Shown here one piece after another: positions 35,151 to 45,146 of a DNA stretch of 48,325 nucleotides (the first letter of the stretch is position 1; each line of letters starts with the position of its first letter). The translations under genes were made by a program, and so were the position numbers. Origin of the DNA: Acidimicrobiales bacterium (GTDB lineage Bacteria > Actinomycetota > Acidimicrobiia > Acidimicrobiales > Acidimicrobilacustridaceae); the NCBI GenBank assembly GCA_030830565.1, contig JAURMR010000022.1, positions 1 through 48,325 on the forward strand, given 5' to 3'. A model generated the notes under the pieces. The model saw only the letters and a list, made by a program, of their open reading frames with translations. It searched no databases and had not been told where the DNA came from.

Positions 35151-35876
35151 TCAGCCAAGAGCAGAAGCGACCTCGGCCGCAATGGAAATCGCAGCAGAAA
35201 TGGGGTCCTCAGCTCGGGTGACGGCGCGTCCGATCACAAGAACATCGGCACCCGAAGCAATCGCCGAAGTCGGGGTCGCGGGACGTGCCTGATCATCGAC
35301 ACCGACGCCCGCTGGTCGGATACCTGGCACGACGGTGACGACATTTGGCGCAATCGCGCGCACCGTTGACAAGTCGCTTGCCGAACACACCAACCCGCCA
35401 CAACCCGCGTCGAGCACAAAGCCCACGCGCTGTTCAAGCGCGACGAGATCGGCCTGCTCGCTCGTCAACACCGTGATGCCCAGACTCGTCGGAGCGGGAA
35501 GTCCCGCCGCAGACGCGCCGTCAGCCACGCCTTCAACACCAGCGCGAAGGTGATCAACACCTGCACGAGTGTGCACCGTGAGATACGACACGCCCAATGA
35601 ACCCATGACTCGCGCCGCTTTGTTCACTGTGGTGGGAATATCGAGGAGTTTGAGATCTGCGAACACCTCGAATCCGTCCCCGATCATCGCCTCAACTGCT
35701 TCTGGACCTGCAGCACTGAACAGTTCAAGTCCGACTTTGGCCACACCGAACCATGGCTGTAATGCGTGGGCAATTCGCCGAGCTGTGACAATGTCATCGA
35801 CATCGAGCGCAAGGGCCAGACGTGAACGAATGACCTCGGGGGCCCCATCGCTGAATTCACTTTTGTCAGCGGGCAT
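35151..35876 (-). CDS. pyrF: Orotidine 5'-phosphate decarboxylase
   Basis: Last step of UMP synthesis. The 241-residue product begins its barrel at LALALDVDD, with KVGLELFSAAGPE, the catalytic FADLKLLDIPTTV (Asp-Lys-Asp) and VVPGIRPAG; a group I enzyme. Its ATG lies 11 bases inside the pyrD end. It closes the pyr operon. Confidence 0.97.
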   Translation of the reverse strand: MPADKSEFSDGAPEVIRSRLALALDVDDIVTARRIAHALQPWFGVAKVGLELFSAAGPEAVEAMIGDGFEVFADLKLLDIPTTVNKAARVMGSLGVSYLTVHTRAGVDHLRAGVEGVADGASAAGLPAPTSLGITVLTSEQADLVALEQRVGFVLDAGCGGLVCSASDLSTVRAIAPNVVTVVPGIRPAGVGVDDQARPATPTSAIASGADVLVIGRAVTRAEDPISAAISIAAEVASALG

Positions 35877-36810
35877 GAACCACTCCGATCAATTCGCGCA
35901 CTGAACGAACTCCGTGGCCGGAACACCAGTCTTCGATTTCGTACTGGACGCGGGCGACGCTTCGCGGGTCGGCGAAAGAAGCGGTTCCAACTTGAACTGC
36001 ACTTGCGCCGGCCATCAGCAATTCGATTGCGTCAACACCACGAGCAACGCCCCCAACACCAACGATCGGAATTTCAGGATGCGCGGCATAGACGTCATGA
36101 ACTGCGCGCACTGCAACGGGATGAATCGCAGGGCCAGAGAGTCCGCCGCCTCCATTGCCAAGTCGATAGGTGCGCGTTTCTGGATCGATCGCCATTCCGA
36201 GGACGGTGTTCACCAGAGTGACTGCGTCGGCACCTGCTTCATGCGCAGCTTTTGCGATCGACGCGAGATCCGACACATTGGGGCTGAGCTTCGCCCACAT
36301 CGGTCGACCGCATACCGACGACGCTCGAATCGCTTCAGCAGTGCTCTGCGGTGCATGGGCAAACATTCGATTTCGGTCGTGATGATTTGGACATGACACA
36401 TTGACTTCAACCGCAACAACTTCAGGCGGTGCATCGCGCAACATCTCTGCGGCTCGCGCATAGTCGTCGATAGTTGATCCCCAGATACTCGCGACGACTG
36501 TGGCGCCGGCTGCGATCACAGCAGGCAGTTCTTCGTCGAGCCATTTGCGAACGCCTGGGCCTTGAAGTCCGACGCTGTTGAGCATGCCGGCAGGCGTTTC
36601 GTGAACACGCGGCGCTGCATTTCCAGCCCACGGTTCGGGGTAGAGCGACTTCACGACGACTGCACCAAGCGACGAAAGGTCGACATAGGCGCCGAGTTCA
36701 TCGCCGTGACCGGCGGTGCCTGATGCCGTCATCACTGGAGCGCGAAGCGTGAGTGAACCCACAGTGGTCGTGAGATCAACCGATGCTCCAGAACGACGGC
36801 GGCGAGCCAT
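35866..36810 (-). CDS. pyrD: Dihydroorotate dehydrogenase, class 1B type
   Basis: Oxidises dihydroorotate to orotate using FMN. In the 314-residue product the catalytic base is the Cys of VEVNVSCPN, as in class 1 enzymes, and there is no N-terminal membrane helix as in class 2. Other blocks: ASGTAGHGDEL, KSLYPEPWAGN, NSVGLQGPG, IVGVGGVARG, VQVGTASFADP. Class 1B enzymes normally work with PyrK (FAD, 2Fe-2S) for NAD+ reduction, but no pyrK is next to it: carB ends exactly where it starts. Confidence 0.95.
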   Translation of the reverse strand: MARRRRSGASVDLTTTVGSLTLRAPVMTASGTAGHGDELGAYVDLSSLGAVVVKSLYPEPWAGNAAPRVHETPAGMLNSVGLQGPGVRKWLDEELPAVIAAGATVVASIWGSTIDDYARAAEMLRDAPPEVVAVEVNVSCPNHHDRNRMFAHAPQSTAEAIRASSVCGRPMWAKLSPNVSDLASIAKAAHEAGADAVTLVNTVLGMAIDPETRTYRLGNGGGGLSGPAIHPVAVRAVHDVYAAHPEIPIVGVGGVARGVDAIELLMAGASAVQVGTASFADPRSVARVQYEIEDWCSGHGVRSVRELIGVVHAR

Positions 36811-39800
36811 CAGGAGGCTCCCCCGGTGCGGACACCGCGGTGATACTCCTGCAGTGGTCGCACCTCAAGCGGATGCGCTGCTCGATCAGCCATGCCGTTC
36901 ACTGCAGCGAGACCAGCAGCGCCAGTCGTGAGCAACGGAATGTTGTGCTTGCCAGCAGCGGCCCGGATATGCGCGCCGTCGGCGCGTGGACCACGCCCAC
37001 GTGGAGAGTTGACGACAAGGACAACCTCGCCGCTCTCAATCAGATCAACCGCGTCCTGTCCGTCGGGCTCACCGATCTTTGCGACCACGGTCGCGACATC
37101 GATGCCGTTGCGAGTCAGATGCTCGGCGGTTCCTGAGGTGGCAGCGATAAAGAATCCGAGTTCACGGAATCGCTGGGCCGTTTTCACGCCAACGTCTTTG
37201 TCTCGATCGGCGAGCGAGAGAAACACGGTGCCTGATGTCGGGAGGTTCGTACCCGCAGCCAACTGACTCTTCGCGAACGCAAGACCAAAGGTGAGATCGA
37301 TGCCCATGACTTCACCAGTTGAACGCATTTCTGGACCGAGCAGTGCATCTGCTTCGGGGAAACGACTGAACGGAAGAACCGCTTCCTTTACTGCGATGTG
37401 ATCGCCCTGCACAGGCTCAGATAACAACCCCTCAGCACGCAGTTCGGTGAGCGTTGCCCCGAGCATCACACGCGCCGCAACCTTTGCCAGCGGAACACCG
37501 GTGGCTTTGGCCACAAATGGAACGGTGCGGCTCGCTCGAGGATTGGCTTCAATGACAAAGACCTGGCCGCTCTTCACCGCGTACTGGACGTTGAGTAGAC
37601 CAACGACACCGAGCGCATCAGCAATGCGATGGCTGTAGTCAGCAAGGACTGCCATAGTTTCTGCGGAAAGCGAATAGGGCGGAATCACACAGGCCGAGTC
37701 ACCGGAGTGGACGCCAGCTTCTTCGACATGTTCCATGATTCCGCCGATAACGAAATCTCCGTTGACGTCGCGAATGGAGTCGACATCGACTTCGGTTGCA
37801 TCTTCGAGGAAGCGGTCGACAAGAACAGGACGCTCGGCAGAGAGTCCGCCTTCTTTCCCCAAACTTCCGAAGCTTGCGAGTTGGGCCATTGCGACACGGA
37901 GACCTTCGTCGTCGTACACGATCTCCATCGCTCGACCACCGAGCACGTAACTGGGTCGTACAAGTACTGGGTATCCGATCTTCGATGTGATTGCGAGTGC
38001 AGCGTCGATATCGACAGCAGTACCACCGGCAGGCTGCGGAATTTCCAGACGCGCACAAAGCGCGTTCCAGAGCTCCCGGTCTTCGGCCGCATCGATTGAT
38101 GCAGGCGAGGTCCCGGCGATGAGTTCGACAGGCAATGTGTTCGACAGTTTGAGCGGCGTCTGCCCGCCAAGGGAAACGATGACGCCAACGGGCTTCTCCG
38201 CATCAATCACATTCATGACGTCTTCATGGGTAAGCGGTTCGAAGTACAAGCGGTCGCTGGTGTCGTAATCCGTTGAAACGGTTTCCGGGTTGCAATTCAC
38301 CATGATGGTTTCGAAACCGGCGTCGCGCAGCGCAAAAGAAGCATGCACACAGCAGTAATCAAATTCGATGCCCTGACCGATCCGGTTGGGGCCCGAACCG
38401 AGAATGACAACTTTTTTGCGGTCCGATGGCGCAACCTCGTCGGTATCTTCCCATGTTGAATAGTGATACGGCGTCTTCGCATCGAACTCAGCAGCACACG
38501 TATCAACTGTCTTGTAGGTAGGTACAACGCCAAGCTCAAGTCGACGCAATCGAACCTCGGCTTCGGTGCGACCCCACAACCACGCGAGCTGCGCATCGGA
38601 GAAGCCCAGTCGCTTCGCACGCTTCCATCCGGCTCGAGTCAGATCCTGAAAGCCGACTTCGGCGAGGTAGGAGCGCTCTTCGGTGATTGCGCTCATCTGA
38701 TCAAGGAACCAAGGATCGACTTTTGTAGCCGCGTAGACCTCATCAATTGATTTGCCGCGACGCATGACCGCTTCGAGTTGGAAGATGCGTTCCGGAGTTC
38801 CGATGCACGCCTTGGCAAGCAATTCGTCAAGCGGAATCTCGTCGTACTCGGCTTCGCCTGGATCACAGTTGAGACCAAGGCGACCTTGCTCAAGCGATCG
38901 CAAACCCTTTTGCAATGACTCGGGGAACGTCCGGCCGATCGACATGACCTCGCCCACCGATTGCATTTGCGTTCCAAGCACACCGCTCGTTCCCGGGAAC
39001 TTTTCGAAGGCCCAACGCGGAATCTTGGTAACGACATAGTCGATCGTGGGCTCAAAAGATGCCGGCGTCATCTTGGTAATGTCATTTGGAATTTCATCGA
39101 GTGTGTAACCAACCGCGAGACGCGCGGCAATCTTGGCGATCGGGAAGCCCGTGGCCTTCGAGGCCAACGCCGAGGAACGTGACACACGCGGATTCATTTC
39201 GATAACAACCATGCCGCCATTTTCGGGATTCACGGCGAACTGAACGTTCGAGCCACCCGTTTCGACACCGACTCGGCGCATGACAGCAAACGCAGCGTCG
39301 CGCATGAGTTGGTATTCGTAATCCGAAAGAGTTTGCGCGGGGGCGACAGTGATGGAGTCGCCGGTATGCACGCCCATGGGATCGACATTTTCGATCGAGC
39401 AGACGATCACGCAGTTATCGGCGTGATCGCGCATGACCTCGAGTTCGTACTCTTTCCAGCCGGCGATCGACTGTTCGACGAGGATTTCGGAGATCGGGCT
39501 CGACTCAAGGCCATACGCTGCGATCTTTTCGAACTCTTCCATGTTCGAGGCAATACCGGTTCCGCGACCACCCAAGATGTACGCGGGCCGTATGACGGCG
39601 GGAAGCCCGATGGAACCGATGACATCCATTGCTTCTTCAAGGGTGTGTGCGGTTGCCGAGATAGGTGTGGCTAATCCGATTTCCGCCATCGCCTGTTTGA
39701 AGAGCTCACGATCTTCAGCCGTTGCGATCGCAAGAGCATCAGCGCCAATCATTTCGACGTTGTACTGCGCGAGGACACCGGCTTCTTCAAGGGCCATCGC

Positions 39801-40094
39801 AAGGTTGAGAGCCGTCTGACCGCCAAGAGTCGGAAGGAGTGCGTCGGGTCGTTCACGCTCAATAATGCGAGTGAGTACCTCGATATCAAGCGGTTCGACA
39901 TAGGTCGCGTCCGCGAAGTCGGGGTCGGTCATGATCGTCGCCGGATTCGAATTCGCCAGCACGACGCGGTATCCCTCTTGACGAAGAATCCGACACGCCT
40001 GTGTCCCCGAATAGTCGAATTCACATGCCTGACCAATCACGATTGGCCCGGAGCCGATCAGCAGAATGGTTTCGATGTCAGTACGGCGCGGCAT
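36810..40094 (-). CDS. carB: Carbamoyl-phosphate synthase large chain
   Basis: 1,094 residues, full length. Two homologous ATP-grasp halves: the first begins [23 protein letters not shown], the second [24 protein letters not shown]; each has an ATP-grasp Arg/Glu/Asn set (VEMNPR / [10 protein letters not shown]). The C-terminal ~140 residues are the allosteric domain, which binds UMP or ornithine in other bacteria. It makes carbamoyl phosphate for both pyrimidines and arginine. Start in a TGATG overlap with carA. Confidence 0.99.
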
Positions 40095-41206
40095 CAGTTG
40101 GTTCCCTTCACGGAATCCATGAGTTCATCGAACATGGTGAACAAGTAGGCAGCATCGTGCGGACCGGGGCCCGCTTCGGGGTGGTACTGCACACTGAACG
40201 CAGGGATATCGAGGCAGCGGATGCCTTCGACGACTCCATCGTTCAGGTTCCGGTGCGTCACTTCGACCTTCGGGCCAATAGAACCGTCGTCGACGGCGTA
40301 GTTGTGGTTCTGACTCGTGATCTCGACGGTTCCGGTTTCGAGACGGCAGACGGGATGGTTGCCGCCGTGATGGCCGAACGGGAGTTTGTAGGTTTCAGCG
40401 CCGAGCGCGGTTGCGAGTAACTGGTGACCTAGGCAGATTCCGAAGATAGGAACTTCACCGAGCAAGCCATCAATGATCTGCGGTGCGCCAACGACGGCCG
40501 CGGGATCGCCCGGGCCGTTCGAAAGGAAGACACCGTCGGGATTGCGGGCGAGAACTTCCGATGCCGGGGTGCCTGCCGGAACCACTTCAACGGTGGCGAT
40601 CCCTGACAGGTGCCGAAGGATTGTTGTCTTGATTCCGAAGTCATAGGCAACAACACGCTTGGGAGTGCGCCCATCAGGGCCCGTGAATGCGTAGTCATAG
40701 GGTGAGGCGCATGTAACCGATCCGACGAGATCAACGCCGCTGGTTCCGTGTTCAGCTTTTGCTGCGGCCAGCAGTGCCGATTCCGACGCAGTTCCAAACG
40801 CACCGGGCATCGCGCCGAGGTCTCGGATGTGACGGGTAAGGCGACGAGTGTCGATGCCGGCGATTCCAGGAACGCCCGCTTTCTGCAGGAATGATTCAAG
40901 ATCGCCTTCGGCCCGCCAGTTGCTGCGGCGACGTGCCATGTCGCGAATGATGATTCCACGAGTGAACGGCCGACGAGATTCATCGTCATACGCAGTGACG
41001 CCGTAGTTGCCGATATGCGGATAGGTGAACGTGATGAGCTGTCCGGCATAGGAGGGGTCGGTGATGATCTCCTGATAGCCCGTTAGCGCTGTGTTGAACA
41101 CGACCTCACCTGAGGTGATGCCATCATCGCGTCGAGCGCCAATTGCTTCACCTTCGAATACTGTTCCGTCGGCGAGCACCAAAAGTGCTTCTTCGATACC
41201 GCTCAT
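40094..41206 (-). CDS. carA: Carbamoyl-phosphate synthase small chain
   Basis: Glutaminase subunit feeding ammonia to CarB; 370 residues. The class I amidotransferase triad is Cys of [11 protein letters not shown] with His and Glu in [31 protein letters not shown] is the N-terminal domain signature. I start at ATG 41206 ([14 protein letters not shown]), overlapping the pyrC stop as ATGA. Confidence 0.98.
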
Positions 41207-42570
41207 CGTTGTGCCTCTCCGTCGAACACGGTCGGGACACCACAAAGGAGCGTGTGGCGAACTTTGCCGCGAACGACGCGCCCTGCATAGGGCGTGTTGT
41301 CGGATTTACTTGCCAGTGCCTTTGGGTCGACCGTCCATTCCTGGGCCGGATCAAAGATCACGAGATGCGCAGGGGCACCGGTTTCAATAGTGCGCCCGTG
41401 GACGTCGTCGATGCGGGCGATCGCAGCGGGATTCCACGACATCTTTGCCATGAACTCGGTCATCGAAAGCACCCCCGGTTCCACCAATTCAGTAATGCCG
41501 AGAGCAAGCGCTGTTTCCAGACCGAGCATTCCGCATGGAGCGTGATCGAACGGCGCTTCCTTGACGTCGGCTGTGTGTGGCGCGTGATCGGTAGCGATTG
41601 CATCGATCGTTCCGTCGGCAAGGCCTGCTTTCACTGCAGCGACATCTTCAGCCGAGCGCAACGGTGGATTCACTTTAAACACAGGGTCGTACGAAACGAC
41701 TTCGGCATGAGTGAGCGTGAAGTGATGCGGTGTTGCTTCAGCAGTGACATTGAGGCCTCGGGCCTTTGCGTCACGCACGAGCGCAACTGCGCCGGCTGTC
41801 GACAGATGCTGGAAGTGCACCGCCATGCCCGTAAGTCTCGAAAGGGCGATGTCGCGGAAGACCATGAGTTCTTCGGCTTCGGCAGGGATGCCGGGGATAC
41901 CGAGTCGGCTCGACCATTCGCCTTCGTGCATATGGCCGCCATGACTCAGAGCCTCGACCTCGCAATGTTGCGCGAGTACCACAGGCTCGGGAAGACCTGA
42001 GGCGTATTCAAGAGCACGTCGCATGAGGCGATCGTCCTGAACGCCACAACCGTCGTCGGTAAAAATTCGAACGCCAGCGGCAGCGAGTTCCGCCATTGGT
42101 GAAAGAGCATCACCTTCGCGACCAATTGTGATCGAACCCGAAGAGCGAACGTCGCAAAGGCCAGCGGCGATGCCGGCATCAAGTACCTGACGAACGACCG
42201 CGACCGAGTCAATGGTTGGTTCGGTGTTGGGCATTGCGACGACTGCGGTGTAACCACCAAGCGCGGCAGCACGACTACCGGTTTCGATCGTTTCGGCTTC
42301 TTCGCGACCTGGTTCACGCAAATGGGTGTGAATGTCGACAAATCCAGGAGCAACCACGCATCCGGTGGCGTCGATCACGGGCGCGTCTGCGAGTCCGAGG
42401 GCATCGAGATCAATCGAGGAACCAACCCCGGCGATTGTCCCGTCCGGTCGAACTGCGACATCGGCAATTCGTTCGCCAGTTCGGTCAACGACCAGACCGC
42501 CGGTGATGATCCATCCTGCTGACTCGGACACAGTTGCCTTTCGGTCGGTGGCGTTGCGTGGTTCAGACAT
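41203..42570 (-). CDS. pyrC: Dihydroorotase
   Basis: Zinc amidohydrolase cyclising carbamoyl aspartate; 455 residues, the type I form. [23 protein letters not shown] (metal His pair), [10 protein letters not shown], the metal-site histidines in AQHCEVEAL and [10 protein letters not shown], and IATDHAPH are present. The start is ATG 42570 after GGGAGGAGAAG, overlapping pyrB by 8 bases. A short N-terminal extension (~20 residues) precedes the barrel. Confidence 0.98.
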
Positions 42571-43543
42571 CGGCTTCTCCTCCCCATGTTGTTCCGCTTC
42601 CGAGAAGCAGGAACAGCACCGCCATACGGACGGCCACACCGTTACGTACCTGATCGACGATCACGGTGTTGGGGTGGTCGGCAACCGCAGCGTCAATTTC
42701 AACACCGCGGTTCATGGGACCGGGATGCATGATCAGAGCGTGGTTCGGGAGCAACTCCGCTCGCTTTTCATTTAGCCCGAATCGATTGCTGTATTCACGA
42801 ATGCTGGGGATGAGCGCTTCAGTCATTCGTTCGCGTTGCATTCGCAGGAGGTAACAAACATCGACCGTTGGCAAGACAGCATTGATATCGGTGCTCACTT
42901 TGACCGGCCAACCTTCGAGGCTGGGTGGCAGCAATGTGGGTGGAGCAACAAGCGTGACATCGGCACCAAGCGTTGTGAATGCTGCGACATTGCTTCGGGC
43001 GACTCGTGAGTGGCGAATATCGCCAACGATTGCAATGTGCTTTCCAGAAAGGTCGCCAAATCGTTGGCGAATTGTGTAGCAATCCAGCAACGCCTGGGTT
43101 GGGTGTTCGTGCCAGCCGTCGCCGGCGTTGATCACTGCGCTTGTGGCCCATTGCGCAACCTGGCGAGGAACCCCAGCAGAAGCGTGGCGAACAACGATTG
43201 CGTCGACCCCCATTGCCTCGATTGTCTCAACGGTGTCGCGGAGCGATTCACCCTTCTTCACTGAAGAAGTGCTGACGCTGAAATTCATGGTGTCCGCAGA
43301 AAGCCGTTTCGCAGCCGTTTCAAAACTCAGTCGGGTACGCGTTGAGTCTTCAAAGAAGAGCGACACCACTGTGCGACCGCGAAGCGCTGGGACTTTTGGG
43401 ATTGTCCGTTCGCTGACTTCAACAAAGGAATCGGTAAGCGTCATGACCTCGTCGATGCCTGCGGCGACATCGGGACCAAGGTCGGAGATCGAAAGAAGAT
43501 TTCGCAAGCGACCGTGACGTGGATTGCTGAGAAGTCGACTCAT
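42563..43543 (-). CDS. pyrB: Aspartate carbamoyltransferase catalytic chain
   Basis: Transfers carbamoyl phosphate to aspartate; 326 residues. FFEDSTRTRLSFE holds the carbamoyl-phosphate loop, SVKKGESLRDT the loop that closes over the neighbouring active site, GDGWHEHPTQALLD the central His, and HPGPMNRG the aspartate side. No pyrI is present, as expected in this phylum. ATG at 43543 overlaps the pyrR stop. Confidence 0.98.
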   Translation of the reverse strand: MSRLLSNPRHGRLRNLLSISDLGPDVAAGIDEVMTLTDSFVEVSERTIPKVPALRGRTVVSLFFEDSTRTRLSFETAAKRLSADTMNFSVSTSSVKKGESLRDTVETIEAMGVDAIVVRHASAGVPRQVAQWATSAVINAGDGWHEHPTQALLDCYTIRQRFGDLSGKHIAIVGDIRHSRVARSNVAAFTTLGADVTLVAPPTLLPPSLEGWPVKVSTDINAVLPTVDVCYLLRMQRERMTEALIPSIREYSNRFGLNEKRAELLPNHALIMHPGPMNRGVEIDAAVADHPNTVIVDQVRNGVAVRMAVLFLLLGSGTTWGGEADV

Positions 43544-44106
43544 TTGAGCATCTCCCCCAGTTCGACGCCGTCAGCAGTGACATCGACAACCTCGTCACGC
43601 CTTGTCGGCAGGTTCTTCCCCACGAAATCGGGTCGGATCGGGAGTTCCCGGTGACCGCGATCGACCATGACCGCAAGCTGCACTGCTCGGGCTCGTCCGT
43701 AGTCCGAGAGCGCATCAAGCGCCGCACGAATTGTGCGGCCAGTGAAGAGCACATCGTCGACGAGAACCACCGTGCGTCCGTCAAGGTCACAGGGAATATC
43801 GGTCACCGCTTCGGGCAGCACGGGGCGTAAACCGATGTCGTCTCGGTAGAAGGCAACATCGAGACATCCGACGGGCACATGCGTGCCATCGATGAGTTCA
43901 AGTGCTTCGCAAAGGCGAGCCGCCAGTGGGACTCCACCGGTCTGCAGACCAATGACGACGACATCGTCGAGGCCCTGATTTCTCTCGATGATCTCGTGAG
44001 CCATGCGCTTGGTGGCCCGTTGCATGTCATCGGAACTCATGACCCGGGTCCGTGCAACAAAAACGCCCCCATACGGGGGCGTCAAGCGTCGTTCACGTTC
44101 AGCCAC
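43540..44106 (-). CDS. pyrR: PyrR regulator / uracil phosphoribosyltransferase
   Basis: UMP-dependent RNA-binding regulator of pyr genes with PRTase fold. VVLVDDVLFTGRTIRAAL is the PRPP loop; RMAHEIIERNQGLDDVVVIGLQTGG opens the domain. Two starts are possible. GTG 44106 (188 residues) follows GGAAGG at 9 bases and is preferred; ATG 44040 (166 residues) is where strong similarity begins but has no ribosome site. Between the two starts the coding sequence itself forms a hairpin plus T-run (44082-44056), so the N-terminal ~22 residues may serve mainly as a translated leader. Confidence 0.94.
   Translation of the reverse strand: MAERERRLTPPYGGVFVARTRVMSSDDMQRATKRMAHEIIERNQGLDDVVVIGLQTGGVPLAARLCEALELIDGTHVPVGCLDVAFYRDDIGLRPVLPEAVTDIPCDLDGRTVVLVDDVLFTGRTIRAALDALSDYGRARAVQLAVMVDRGHRELPIRPDFVGKNLPTRRDEVVDVTADGVELGEMLK
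44056..44082 (-). terminator. Intrinsic terminator hairpin inside the first pyrR codons
   Basis: ACGCCCCC and GGGGGCGT form a perfect 8-bp GC-rich stem (44082-44063) with a GTAT loop, followed by TTTTTGTT. It starts 22 bases downstream of the GTG at 44106 and in that frame encodes TPPYGGVFV. Ribosomes translating from the GTG would run over it. Confidence 0.75.
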
Positions 44107-44112
44107 GTTCGT

Positions 44113-44145
44113 GGTCCTTCCTGTCCGTTCGGGCCTCACGGGACC
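44113..44145 (-). promoter_or_regulatory. PyrR-binding-like RNA hairpin covering the pyrR ribosome site
   Basis: GGTCC (44145-44141) pairs with GGACC (44117-44113). Between them lies CGTGAGGCC, matching the GNGAGG core of PyrR binding loops, and the right arm is GGAAGGACC, matching their AAGGA side. GGAAGG is also the Shine-Dalgarno for GTG 44106. PyrR binding would therefore hide the ribosome site, as reported for M. smegmatis. Confidence 0.7.
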
Positions 44146-44157
44146 CGCTTCACGGTC

Positions 44158-44171
44158 AGAGAGAGAGTATA
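44158..44171 (-). promoter_or_regulatory. pyr operon promoter
   Basis: TATACT (44171-44166) is the best -10 element near pyrR. It is followed by eight alternating pyrimidines (CTCTCTCT) and then G, so transcription must begin within or right after a pyrimidine run. No clear -35. The leader to the GTG would be about 50 bases. Confidence 0.6.
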
Positions 44172-44178
44172 TCGCGAG

Positions 44179-44586
44179 TTATCGGACCGCGCCTGCGACA
44201 GCGGAGAGCACGCCATTCACGTATCGACTGCTGTCATCTGTGCTGTAGGACTTCGCCAGTTCAACGGCCTCGGAGATCACCACAGCGGTCGGAACATCGG
44301 GCCGATGGATGAGCTCGTAGGTCGCAAGGCGAAGGATCGCACGGTCGAGCGCAGGCATTCGGTCGACATCCCAATTGCGGGCATGGGAGGCAATCACTGC
44401 ATCGAGATCGTCCTGGTTCTCCCCCACCCCAACAACAAGTTCAGCGGCGAACTCGTCGGGGCCAACAGGTAGAGAGGCGAGAACATCAGCGATTGCATCG
44501 CCCTTCATCTCTGTTTCGTAGAGAAGATGAAATGCACGCTCTCGGGCGTCGTGTCGATTGGTTGCGTTTCCGAGGTCGTCGCTCAC
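44179..44586 (-). CDS. nusB: Transcription antitermination protein NusB
   Basis: All-helical RNA-binding protein of 135 residues that binds boxA RNA with S10 during rRNA transcription. NRHDARERAFHLLYETEMKG and MPALDRAILRLATYELIHRPDVPTAVVISEAVELAKSYS are characteristic. It starts at a GTG overlapping the efp stop (GTGA). The boxA-like element at 127-111 is a plausible target in the same window. Confidence 0.97.
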   Translation of the reverse strand: MSDDLGNATNRHDARERAFHLLYETEMKGDAIADVLASLPVGPDEFAAELVVGVGENQDDLDAVIASHARNWDVDRMPALDRAILRLATYELIHRPDVPTAVVISEAVELAKSYSTDDSSRYVNGVLSAVAGAVR

Positions 44587-45146
44587 GCCCGGGTCAGGTA
44601 TTCGCCGGTACGGGTGTCGACCTTGACGCGATCGTTGGGCTCGACAAACAGCGGAACCTGGATCACAAGGCCAGTTTCAAGCGTTGCCGGCTTGCGGGCA
44701 CCCGAAACACGGTCGCCCTGAATGCCAGGTTCAGTTTCGGCGATGTTGAGCTCAACGGCAGCAGGAAGTTCGACGCCGACGATTTCGTCGCCGTACATCT
44801 TGAGAACCGCTTCGCCATTTTCCACGAGGTAATTCGAGGCGTCACCAAGCGAAACCGGCCCCACGTTGAGCTGGTCGTAGGTGGCATTGTCCATGAAGAC
44901 GTAGTCGTCGCCCGAGCGATACAGGAACTGCATCTCGCGCTTATCGATCATCGCCCGCTCGACCTTTTCACCGGCGCGGAAGGTGCGCTCGACAACGGCG
45001 CCATTGCGAGCGTTCTTGAGCGTGGTGCGCACGAATGCGCCACCCTTGCCCGGCTTCACGTGCTGGAACTCGACGATTTCGAACAAAACGCCTTCAATGT
45101 CGAGCGCCATGCCGTTCTTGATGTCGTTCGTGGTGATGGTGGGCAT
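44583..45146 (-). CDS. efp: Elongation factor P
   Basis: Relieves ribosome stalling at polyproline. In 187 residues the three OB-like domains are present; the tip loop KPGKGGAFVR holds the Lys that is modified in some bacteria. MQFLYRSGDDYVFMDNATYDQ and the C-terminal VIQVPLFVEPNDRVKVDTRTGEYLTR are family signatures. AGGAAGG precedes the ATG. Confidence 0.99.
   Translation of the reverse strand: MPTITTNDIKNGMALDIEGVLFEIVEFQHVKPGKGGAFVRTTLKNARNGAVVERTFRAGEKVERAMIDKREMQFLYRSGDDYVFMDNATYDQLNVGPVSLGDASNYLVENGEAVLKMYGDEIVGVELPAAVELNIAETEPGIQGDRVSGARKPATLETGLVIQVPLFVEPNDRVKVDTRTGEYLTRA

Follow-up and report, generated by a model that had tools for sequence, protein, structure and literature searches.

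The window, by which the whole stretch of 48,325 nucleotides analysed here is meant, is part of a 2.0 Mb draft genome (44 contigs) from the order Acidimicrobiales. On its minus strand, the genes efp and nusB are followed by pyrR, pyrB, pyrC, carA, carB and pyrD, with pyrR heading a pyrimidine operon (Table 1). The pyrR product is a member of the PyrR family according to its NCBIfam model, and its best match in the PDB is 1ufr, which we take to be the PyrR protein of Thermus. An earlier note on this DNA had listed a TATACT promoter, a PyrR-binding hairpin, a Shine-Dalgarno sequence, a GTG start codon and a terminator hairpin inside the gene; all of these are present and follow each other in this order.

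Table 1. Features of the pyr operon and its leader in the window.
Feature	Position	Strand	Basis or remark
-10 box TATACT, probable pyr operon promoter	44166..44171	-	sequence; position conserved among same-order loci
PyrR-binding hairpin (predicted)	44125..44155	-	fold, covariation and R1 matches
Shine-Dalgarno AGGAAGG	44116..44122	-	sequence; abuts the PyrR hairpin
GTG start codon of pyrR	44104..44106	-	start codons at the homologous codon in 103/127; downstream codon periodicity
Intrinsic terminator stem-loop, pyrR codons 8-15	44062..44083	-	score d; synonymous-shuffle test; wobble covariation
U-tract TTTTTGTT, codons 15-17 Val-Phe-Val	44056..44063	-	GTT bias
pyrR	43540..44106	-	188 aa; NCBIfam NF003549, 218.9 bits vs curated cut-off 138; N-terminal extension = residues 1-14
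pyrB, aspartate carbamoyltransferase	42563..43543	-	overlaps pyrR
pyrC, dihydroorotase	41203..42639	-	predicted start
carA	40094..41245	-	predicted start
carB	36810..40094	-	
pyrD, dihydroorotate dehydrogenase	35866..36810	-	

The comparison covers 127 pyrR loci of the order of the window (same-order loci), namely 110 of the 111 matches of a first search, the window included, and 17 from another search; G055, which is a contig-edge fragment, was excluded. Together with 40 loci from other orders of the class, among the matches listed, this amounts to 167 class loci. From outside the class, 45 loci were taken from the best-scoring model matches and not at random. Four of these (L227, where the locator had taken a wrong site, L241, L246 and L247) had no pyrR frame and were dropped, which left 41 usable loci. 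The PyrR site was located by a regular expression, which missed 4 and scored 11 low among the 167 loci, and it was rechecked with R1, a covariance model of the hairpin trained on 50 rows that all stem from the same loci. Terminators were scored with a d'Aubenton-type value d and were counted at d>0 between the PyrR site and the PyrR core.

A TANNNT box was detected in 123 same-order loci, and in 115 of these it lies 7-11 nt upstream of the lower stem of the PyrR hairpin (raw count). Therefore, transcription probably begins near the hairpin foot, and little leader is left upstream of it. The hairpin itself consists of a lower stem CCGU/ACGG (44155-44152 / 44128-44125, minus strand) and an upper stem CGGGUC/GGCCCG (44147-44142 / 44135-44130), with a 5' bulge GAAG and the loop CCGUGA. 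These pairs covary; the GGTCC/GGACC pairing named previously is not the conserved one. The leader folds with a z of -2.31, and 5 of 200 shuffles fold equally well. In 50 diverse relatives, 96.2% of the cells are paired and 68 double changes are present vs 15.5 in shuffles; in slid structures, used as a control, just 25-45% of the cells are paired. The two-part stem, the purine-rich 5' bulge, the covariation and the CNGNGA loop, presumably the consensus of known PyrR-binding loops, are those of a PyrR-binding hairpin. An Rfam search of the leader gave nothing at gathering, and RF00515, the PyrR motif, was absent from the 4 matches at E<=10. R1 matches the window, itself a training row, at 44160-44117 on the minus strand (56.5 bits, E 4.6e-13). 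At E<=0.01 it matches 166 of the 167 class loci, the window included and the other-order loci being among the matches listed (L114 was missed), and at E<=0.001 it matches 183 of 396 genomes sampled across the phylum.

The Shine-Dalgarno sequence, thought before to lie inside the right arm, starts 2 nt past the lower stem, and only an extra CUG/CAG extension, present in some loci, overlaps it. The distance from the lower stem to the start codon could be measured in 82 d>0 loci and is 8-19 nt in 77 of them. A PyrR hairpin overlapping or abutting the ribosome-binding site, as found here, is the arrangement of the Mycobacterium smegmatis type.

The GTG at 44106 is favoured as the start of pyrR, as had been claimed, and both this start codon and its ribosome site are conserved in relatives. 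ATG, GTG or TTG is present 22 codons before the position of 44040 in 103 of the 127 same-order loci, counted without selection (51 GTG, 28 ATG, 24 TTG). At the 20 codons between codon 1 and the final codon before 44040, start triplets occur in at most 22 of 127 loci at any position; the final codon itself is a start triplet in 52 of 127 loci, owing to GTG codons for valine. A codon table was made from 98 loci picked by their best-ranked start at codon 1, which makes its fixed NTG circular; in these loci, codons 2-6 (Ala-Glu-Arg-Glu-Arg) show third-base entropies of 1.1-1.8 vs 0.1-0.7 at bases 1 and 2. The alignment of solved PyrR structures to the window protein begins at residue 20-22. A model predicted from 15 sequences (mean pLDDT 81.5) has residues 1-12 at pLDDT<50 and its first strand at residues 15-23. 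According to the earlier note, a start at ATG 44040 (residue 23) with no translation before it would overturn its reading; this start is disfavoured, since it would remove the first strand, and by the codon periodicity and the start codons at codon 1. Because of these start codons, the third-base variation and the strand, together with the solved structures, translation very probably crosses the terminator region. A pyrR-frame start codon is located between the PyrR site and the terminator in 84 of 85 d>0 loci, the exception being L164; the translated frame in L164 and L165 is probably a leader ORF. The Ala-Glu-Arg-Glu-Arg motif (44103-44089, minus strand) is also strongly conserved as protein (R4 in 94, E5 in 95 and R6 in 93 of 98 loci) and falls within the residues predicted to be disordered.

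The terminator of the window has a 9-pair stem, counted as 8 bp before, followed by TTTTTGTT (44083-44056, minus strand), and is located in pyrR codons 8-17, as the earlier note had it. From the start codon, the frame reads GTG-GCT-GAA-CGT-GAA-CGA-CGC-TTG-ACG-CCC-CCG-TAT-GGG-GGC-GTT-TTT-GTT-GCA. A terminator scan over 13.3 kb gave 4 terminator-like sites, of which this one alone has more than 6 pairs; shuffles give 12.8 sites, and the scan therefore proves nothing by itself. The comparison carries more weight. A d>0 terminator is present in 85 of the 167 class loci, the other-order ones being among the matches listed. Among same-order loci, 73 of 127 reach d>0 vs 4.98 expected from synonymous-codon reshuffling with matched usage. 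Among other-order loci it is 11 of 39 vs 0.45 (among the matches listed; L168 was excluded from this test), and control windows in the gene body gave 0 of 668.

Furthermore, both wobble pairs examined over 126 distinct hairpin windows covary, in permutation tests that ignore relatedness. Within the 66 windows having Pro10, Gly13 and Gly14, the third positions of P10 and G13 are paired in 58 (permutation mean 42.0, maximum 51) and those of T9 and G14 in 61 (mean 54.1, maximum 60), with 9 and 4 double changes against permutation means of 1.80 and 0.48. In the U-tract, GTT is used for V15 in 63 of 82 and for V17 in 58 of 80 same-order loci; elsewhere it is used for V22 in 5 of 87 and in the gene body for 235 of 2743 valines (8.6%). 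With 80 named loci mixed in, some of them from the same genomes, the counts are 89 of 116 for V15 and 79 of 110 for V17. Where the amino acids differ, the hairpin is often kept in new letters (L015, L024, L050, L080, L113, L121, L125), and hairpins of differing sequence occupy the same place in L024, L080, L112, L113, L121 and L125. The stem starts 25 nt past the start codon in 56 of 84 loci. This is an intrinsic terminator inside an ORF and near its start, the ORF being translated by comparative evidence, and the comparisons indicate that hairpin and U-tract are selected as RNA beyond the protein sequence. Covariation in both hairpins among relatives, proposed earlier as a check, is found for the PyrR hairpin as well as for the terminator.

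The PyrR hairpin is near-universal, while the terminator is a frequent but losable partner. It is dispensable, since 54 of the 127 same-order loci lack a d>0 terminator and 17 of the 58 sampled families have no such locus, at least one being present in the other 41 (counted by anonymous family labels). Some of the same-order loci at d<=0 retain the hairpin with a poor U-tract (L007, L019, L039, L085), and in many loci the U-tract is only TTTTCGTT. Terminator and N-terminal extension occur together: by length of the extension, d>0 is found in 0 of 7 loci with up to 12 codons, 1 of 5 with 13-19, 72 of 114 with 20-26 and 0 of 1 with more. A d>0 terminator is also seen in 37 of the 80 named loci, a set that in part repeats genomes; IMCC26207 (L295, d 39.2) and Candidatus Microthrix (L259) are two of the 37. 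It had been stated that relatives conserving one hairpin alone would speak against a joint switch; some do keep just the PyrR hairpin, among them all 7 with a short N-terminus, and others keep both.

Outside the order, the terminator is found in separate leader ORFs. In a sister family (L171-L175, of which L171 comes from the genome of L165 and L173 from that of L164) and in several outside-class loci, a short ORF stands downstream of the PyrR hairpin; it includes the terminator hairpin, and its end lies at or within the pyrR start. In L172 this ORF is MLRLRMQAAHRAAFFVDRPGEKT, with its stop TGA within the GTGA of pyrR; further examples are L213, L242 and L244. Among the 41 readable outside-class loci, 22 have a hairpin at d>-30 (18 at d>0) and 19 have none; in several of these 19, pyrR starts right behind the PyrR hairpin. 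Of 27 loci (the 22 outside-class and 5 sister-family loci, all at d>-30), 25 have an ORF running across the hairpin vs 14.0 in shuffles, a moderate excess for a count that takes the best of several start candidates. In one family, L177-L181, a leader ORF between PyrR hairpin and pyrR ends directly at the pyrR start, and no terminator was detected in these leaders. This is perhaps a variant with translational coupling only.

A second PyrR site is located before carA in two same-order genomes, L187 (G002) and L192 (G102), where both ORFs match carA families; G161 is a third genome with a second site. Leader ORFs of 24 codons (L187) and 35 codons (L192) overlap the carA start. The former contains a GC hairpin with a poor U-tail, the latter a long inverted repeat TGCATGTTCGTGCAC...GTGCATGAACATGCA without a U-tail.

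The simplest account of these arrangements is that the leader ORF of an older leader-peptide attenuator was probably fused to pyrR as an N-terminal extension in the main order. On a wider scale, we lean slightly toward a phylum-wide ancestral PyrR switch in the form of a ribosome-gated attenuator. In it, the hairpin would have stood over the start of a terminator-bearing leader ORF handing ribosomes to pyrR; in one order of the Acidimicrobiia this ORF would have become part of the regulator, whose first codons would thus encode an RNA switch for the whole operon, which keeps its place in 41 of the 58 families while its sequence changes.

For the window and its order, a translation-gated PyrR attenuator is the best explanation, and we consider it likely. 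In it, we infer PyrR binding, a steric block of initiation, suppression of the hairpin by the ribosome and UMP/UTP as the signal. Transcription would begin at about the foot of the PyrR hairpin. At low UMP/UTP, PyrR would be free and a ribosome would initiate at GTG 44106; advancing over the next codons, it would cover the left arm of the terminator, and RNA polymerase would continue into pyrR-pyrB-pyrC-carA-carB-pyrD. At high UMP/UTP, PyrR would clamp the hairpin beside the Shine-Dalgarno sequence and keep the 30S subunit from loading, the ribosome-free terminator would fold, and transcription would end about 50 nt into pyrR. In this way, translation of pyrR and transcription of the operon would be halted jointly by PyrR. 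A spacing of 8-19 nt is within a 30S footprint; therefore, bound PyrR should block loading. Since the stem starts 25 nt past the start codon, a ribosome a few codons into the gene should cover the left arm. The earlier note had proposed such a two-stage switch on the whole operon. Its parts, their conservation and covariation, the start and the lack of a detected antiterminator in the same-order leaders stand, while the terminator is missing from a large share of the order and the switch itself is what we infer.

In E. coli, a ribosome on pyrL prevents the pyr terminator, as stated in the excerpt of PMC5021804. For another E. coli terminator, 30 bp past an AUG, the excerpt of PMC4824070 gives a loss of only about 10% of efficiency upon translation. 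According to its authors, the first ribosome comes too late, and they name pyrBI as an exception via pausing. This result speaks against the gated reading. With a stem 25 nt past the start, a polymerase pause or fast initiation would therefore be needed here.

The same result also bears on the first alternative, that PyrR represses translation alone and the in-gene terminator is a fixed attenuator, which stops an unvarying fraction of transcripts regardless of the ribosome. It would fit the E. coli terminator in the first 100 bp that kept about 90% of its efficiency despite translation (PMC4824070, as excerpted), and the lineages that possess the PyrR hairpin without a terminator. It leaves unexplained why loci of the order have the terminator in a translated ORF, and those of the sister family and outside the class have it in separate leader ORFs, when an untranslated position would serve equally. 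We regard it as unlikely. Alternatively, the terminator might serve the release of a short RNA, which acts as PyrR decoy or small RNA. Judged from the coordinates, the terminated transcript would be about 100 nt long with an intact PyrR site; for such a role, however, the terminator need not be translated, and this reading appears very unlikely.

A classical attenuator of the Bacillus type, in which the left arm of the terminator is the pairing partner of a competing antiterminator, while an anti-antiterminator is stabilised by PyrR, has a still smaller chance, although this mode is documented for PyrR of B. subtilis in the excerpt of PMC4347634. The pairing of the sequence from PyrR loop to terminator with the terminator 5' arm was scored in 71 of the 73 same-order d>0 loci. 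The mean z was +1.55 with 0 of 71 loci below -2, which means that these leaders are on average less complementary to the 5' arm than their own shuffles. Neither the sequence 5' nor that 3' of the PyrR hairpin yielded an antiterminator in the same-order leaders, which fits the earlier reading; the antiterminator pairing that defines the Bacillus type is thus not seen there. Furthermore, there is little leader between the -10 box and the PyrR hairpin, and PyrR hairpin and terminator have no bases in common. Elsewhere, the mean z was +0.67 in 12 other-order loci (among the matches listed) and -0.10 in 18 outside-class loci. In some leaders outside the class, the 3' arm of the PyrR hairpin could form an antiterminator (L233 with the lowest z, -1.92; L239, -1.36), and therefore both modes may coexist in the phylum. 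Least probable is that the hairpin is a by-product of the protein motif TPPxGGVF without any RNA role: this motif is conserved in many loci, but the synonymous-shuffle null, the synonymous wobble covariation, the GTT bias, the persistence of hairpins despite amino-acid changes (L015, L024, L050, L080, L121) and the predicted disorder of residues 1-12 disfavour a protein-only origin.

Ribosome-blocked terminators (pyrBI), PyrR attenuation and translational repression by PyrR are already known, and their combination has reportedly been proposed for Thermus. In 1997, Van de Casteele and colleagues reportedly proposed for the pyrR-pyrB-bbc-pyrC leader of Thermus ZO5 a PyrR-controlled terminator without antiterminator, kept open by a translating ribosome. 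The mechanism favoured here would share these traits. It differs in that the Thermus proposal reportedly concerns one leader, whereas here the terminator is within pyrR and selection is seen across an order. For M. smegmatis, Fields and Switzer are said to have described in 2007 translational repression by PyrR, with the PyrR hairpin beside the ribosome-binding site of pyrR and no terminator. The window likewise has its PyrR hairpin adjoining this site; in contrast to that reported system, a terminator is present just downstream in the coding region and is under selection in the lineage of the window.

In E. coli pyrBI, UTP acts via polymerase pausing, and the loop consensus of B. subtilis PyrR is alike that of the window. 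The B. subtilis attenuators also combine PyrR with an intrinsic terminator; in contrast to the same-order leaders, they use antiterminator/anti-antiterminator pairing (PMC4347634, as excerpted). In E. coli pyrBI/pyrL, a ribosome on a leader ORF likewise prevents the intrinsic terminator of a pyrimidine operon (excerpts of PMC5021804 and PMC4824070), whereas PyrR is absent, the leader peptide is separate and the initiation block is the proposal for the window. The earlier division of PyrR systems into antiterminator switching and ribosome-site masking is therefore incomplete, since ribosome-blocked terminators are described for pyrBI in these excerpts and a PyrR version has reportedly been proposed for Thermus. 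In the literature searched, which was covered in part, no report of a PyrR terminator inside pyrR was found, nor comparative evidence for such a type in actinobacteria.

If this reading is true, one RNA-binding protein would shut off translation and transcription via the ribosome, with no competing RNA fold, and much of a bacterial order would carry a regulatory terminator dual-coded within a protein gene. An in-gene site would be missed by terminator searches that cover just short ORFs and intergenic regions, such as the survey excerpted from PMC2965389. The E. coli finding that a terminator within the first 100 bp evades the ribosome (PMC4824070, as excerpted) should then fail here, and transcription-translation coupling over early codons becomes a testable question.

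Immediately upstream of pyrR are nusB and efp (44179-45146, minus strand), efp being two genes upstream. EF-P eases Pro-Pro codons, and this neighbour may matter, since the left arm of the terminator encodes Pro-Pro in the genome of the window. Arg-Pro replaces Pro-Pro in some variants (R10 in 16 of 98 same-order loci), and Pro-Pro is therefore not required. Finally, two records outside the sampled class by title carry pyrR genes of the Acidimicrobiales type and are probably mislabelled: L252 (CAMCTW010000008.1), titled a Bifidobacterium breve MAG, with a pyrR 92% identical to that of the window, and L254 (JAGWYK010000003.1), titled an Acidobacteria bacterium, with one 85% identical.
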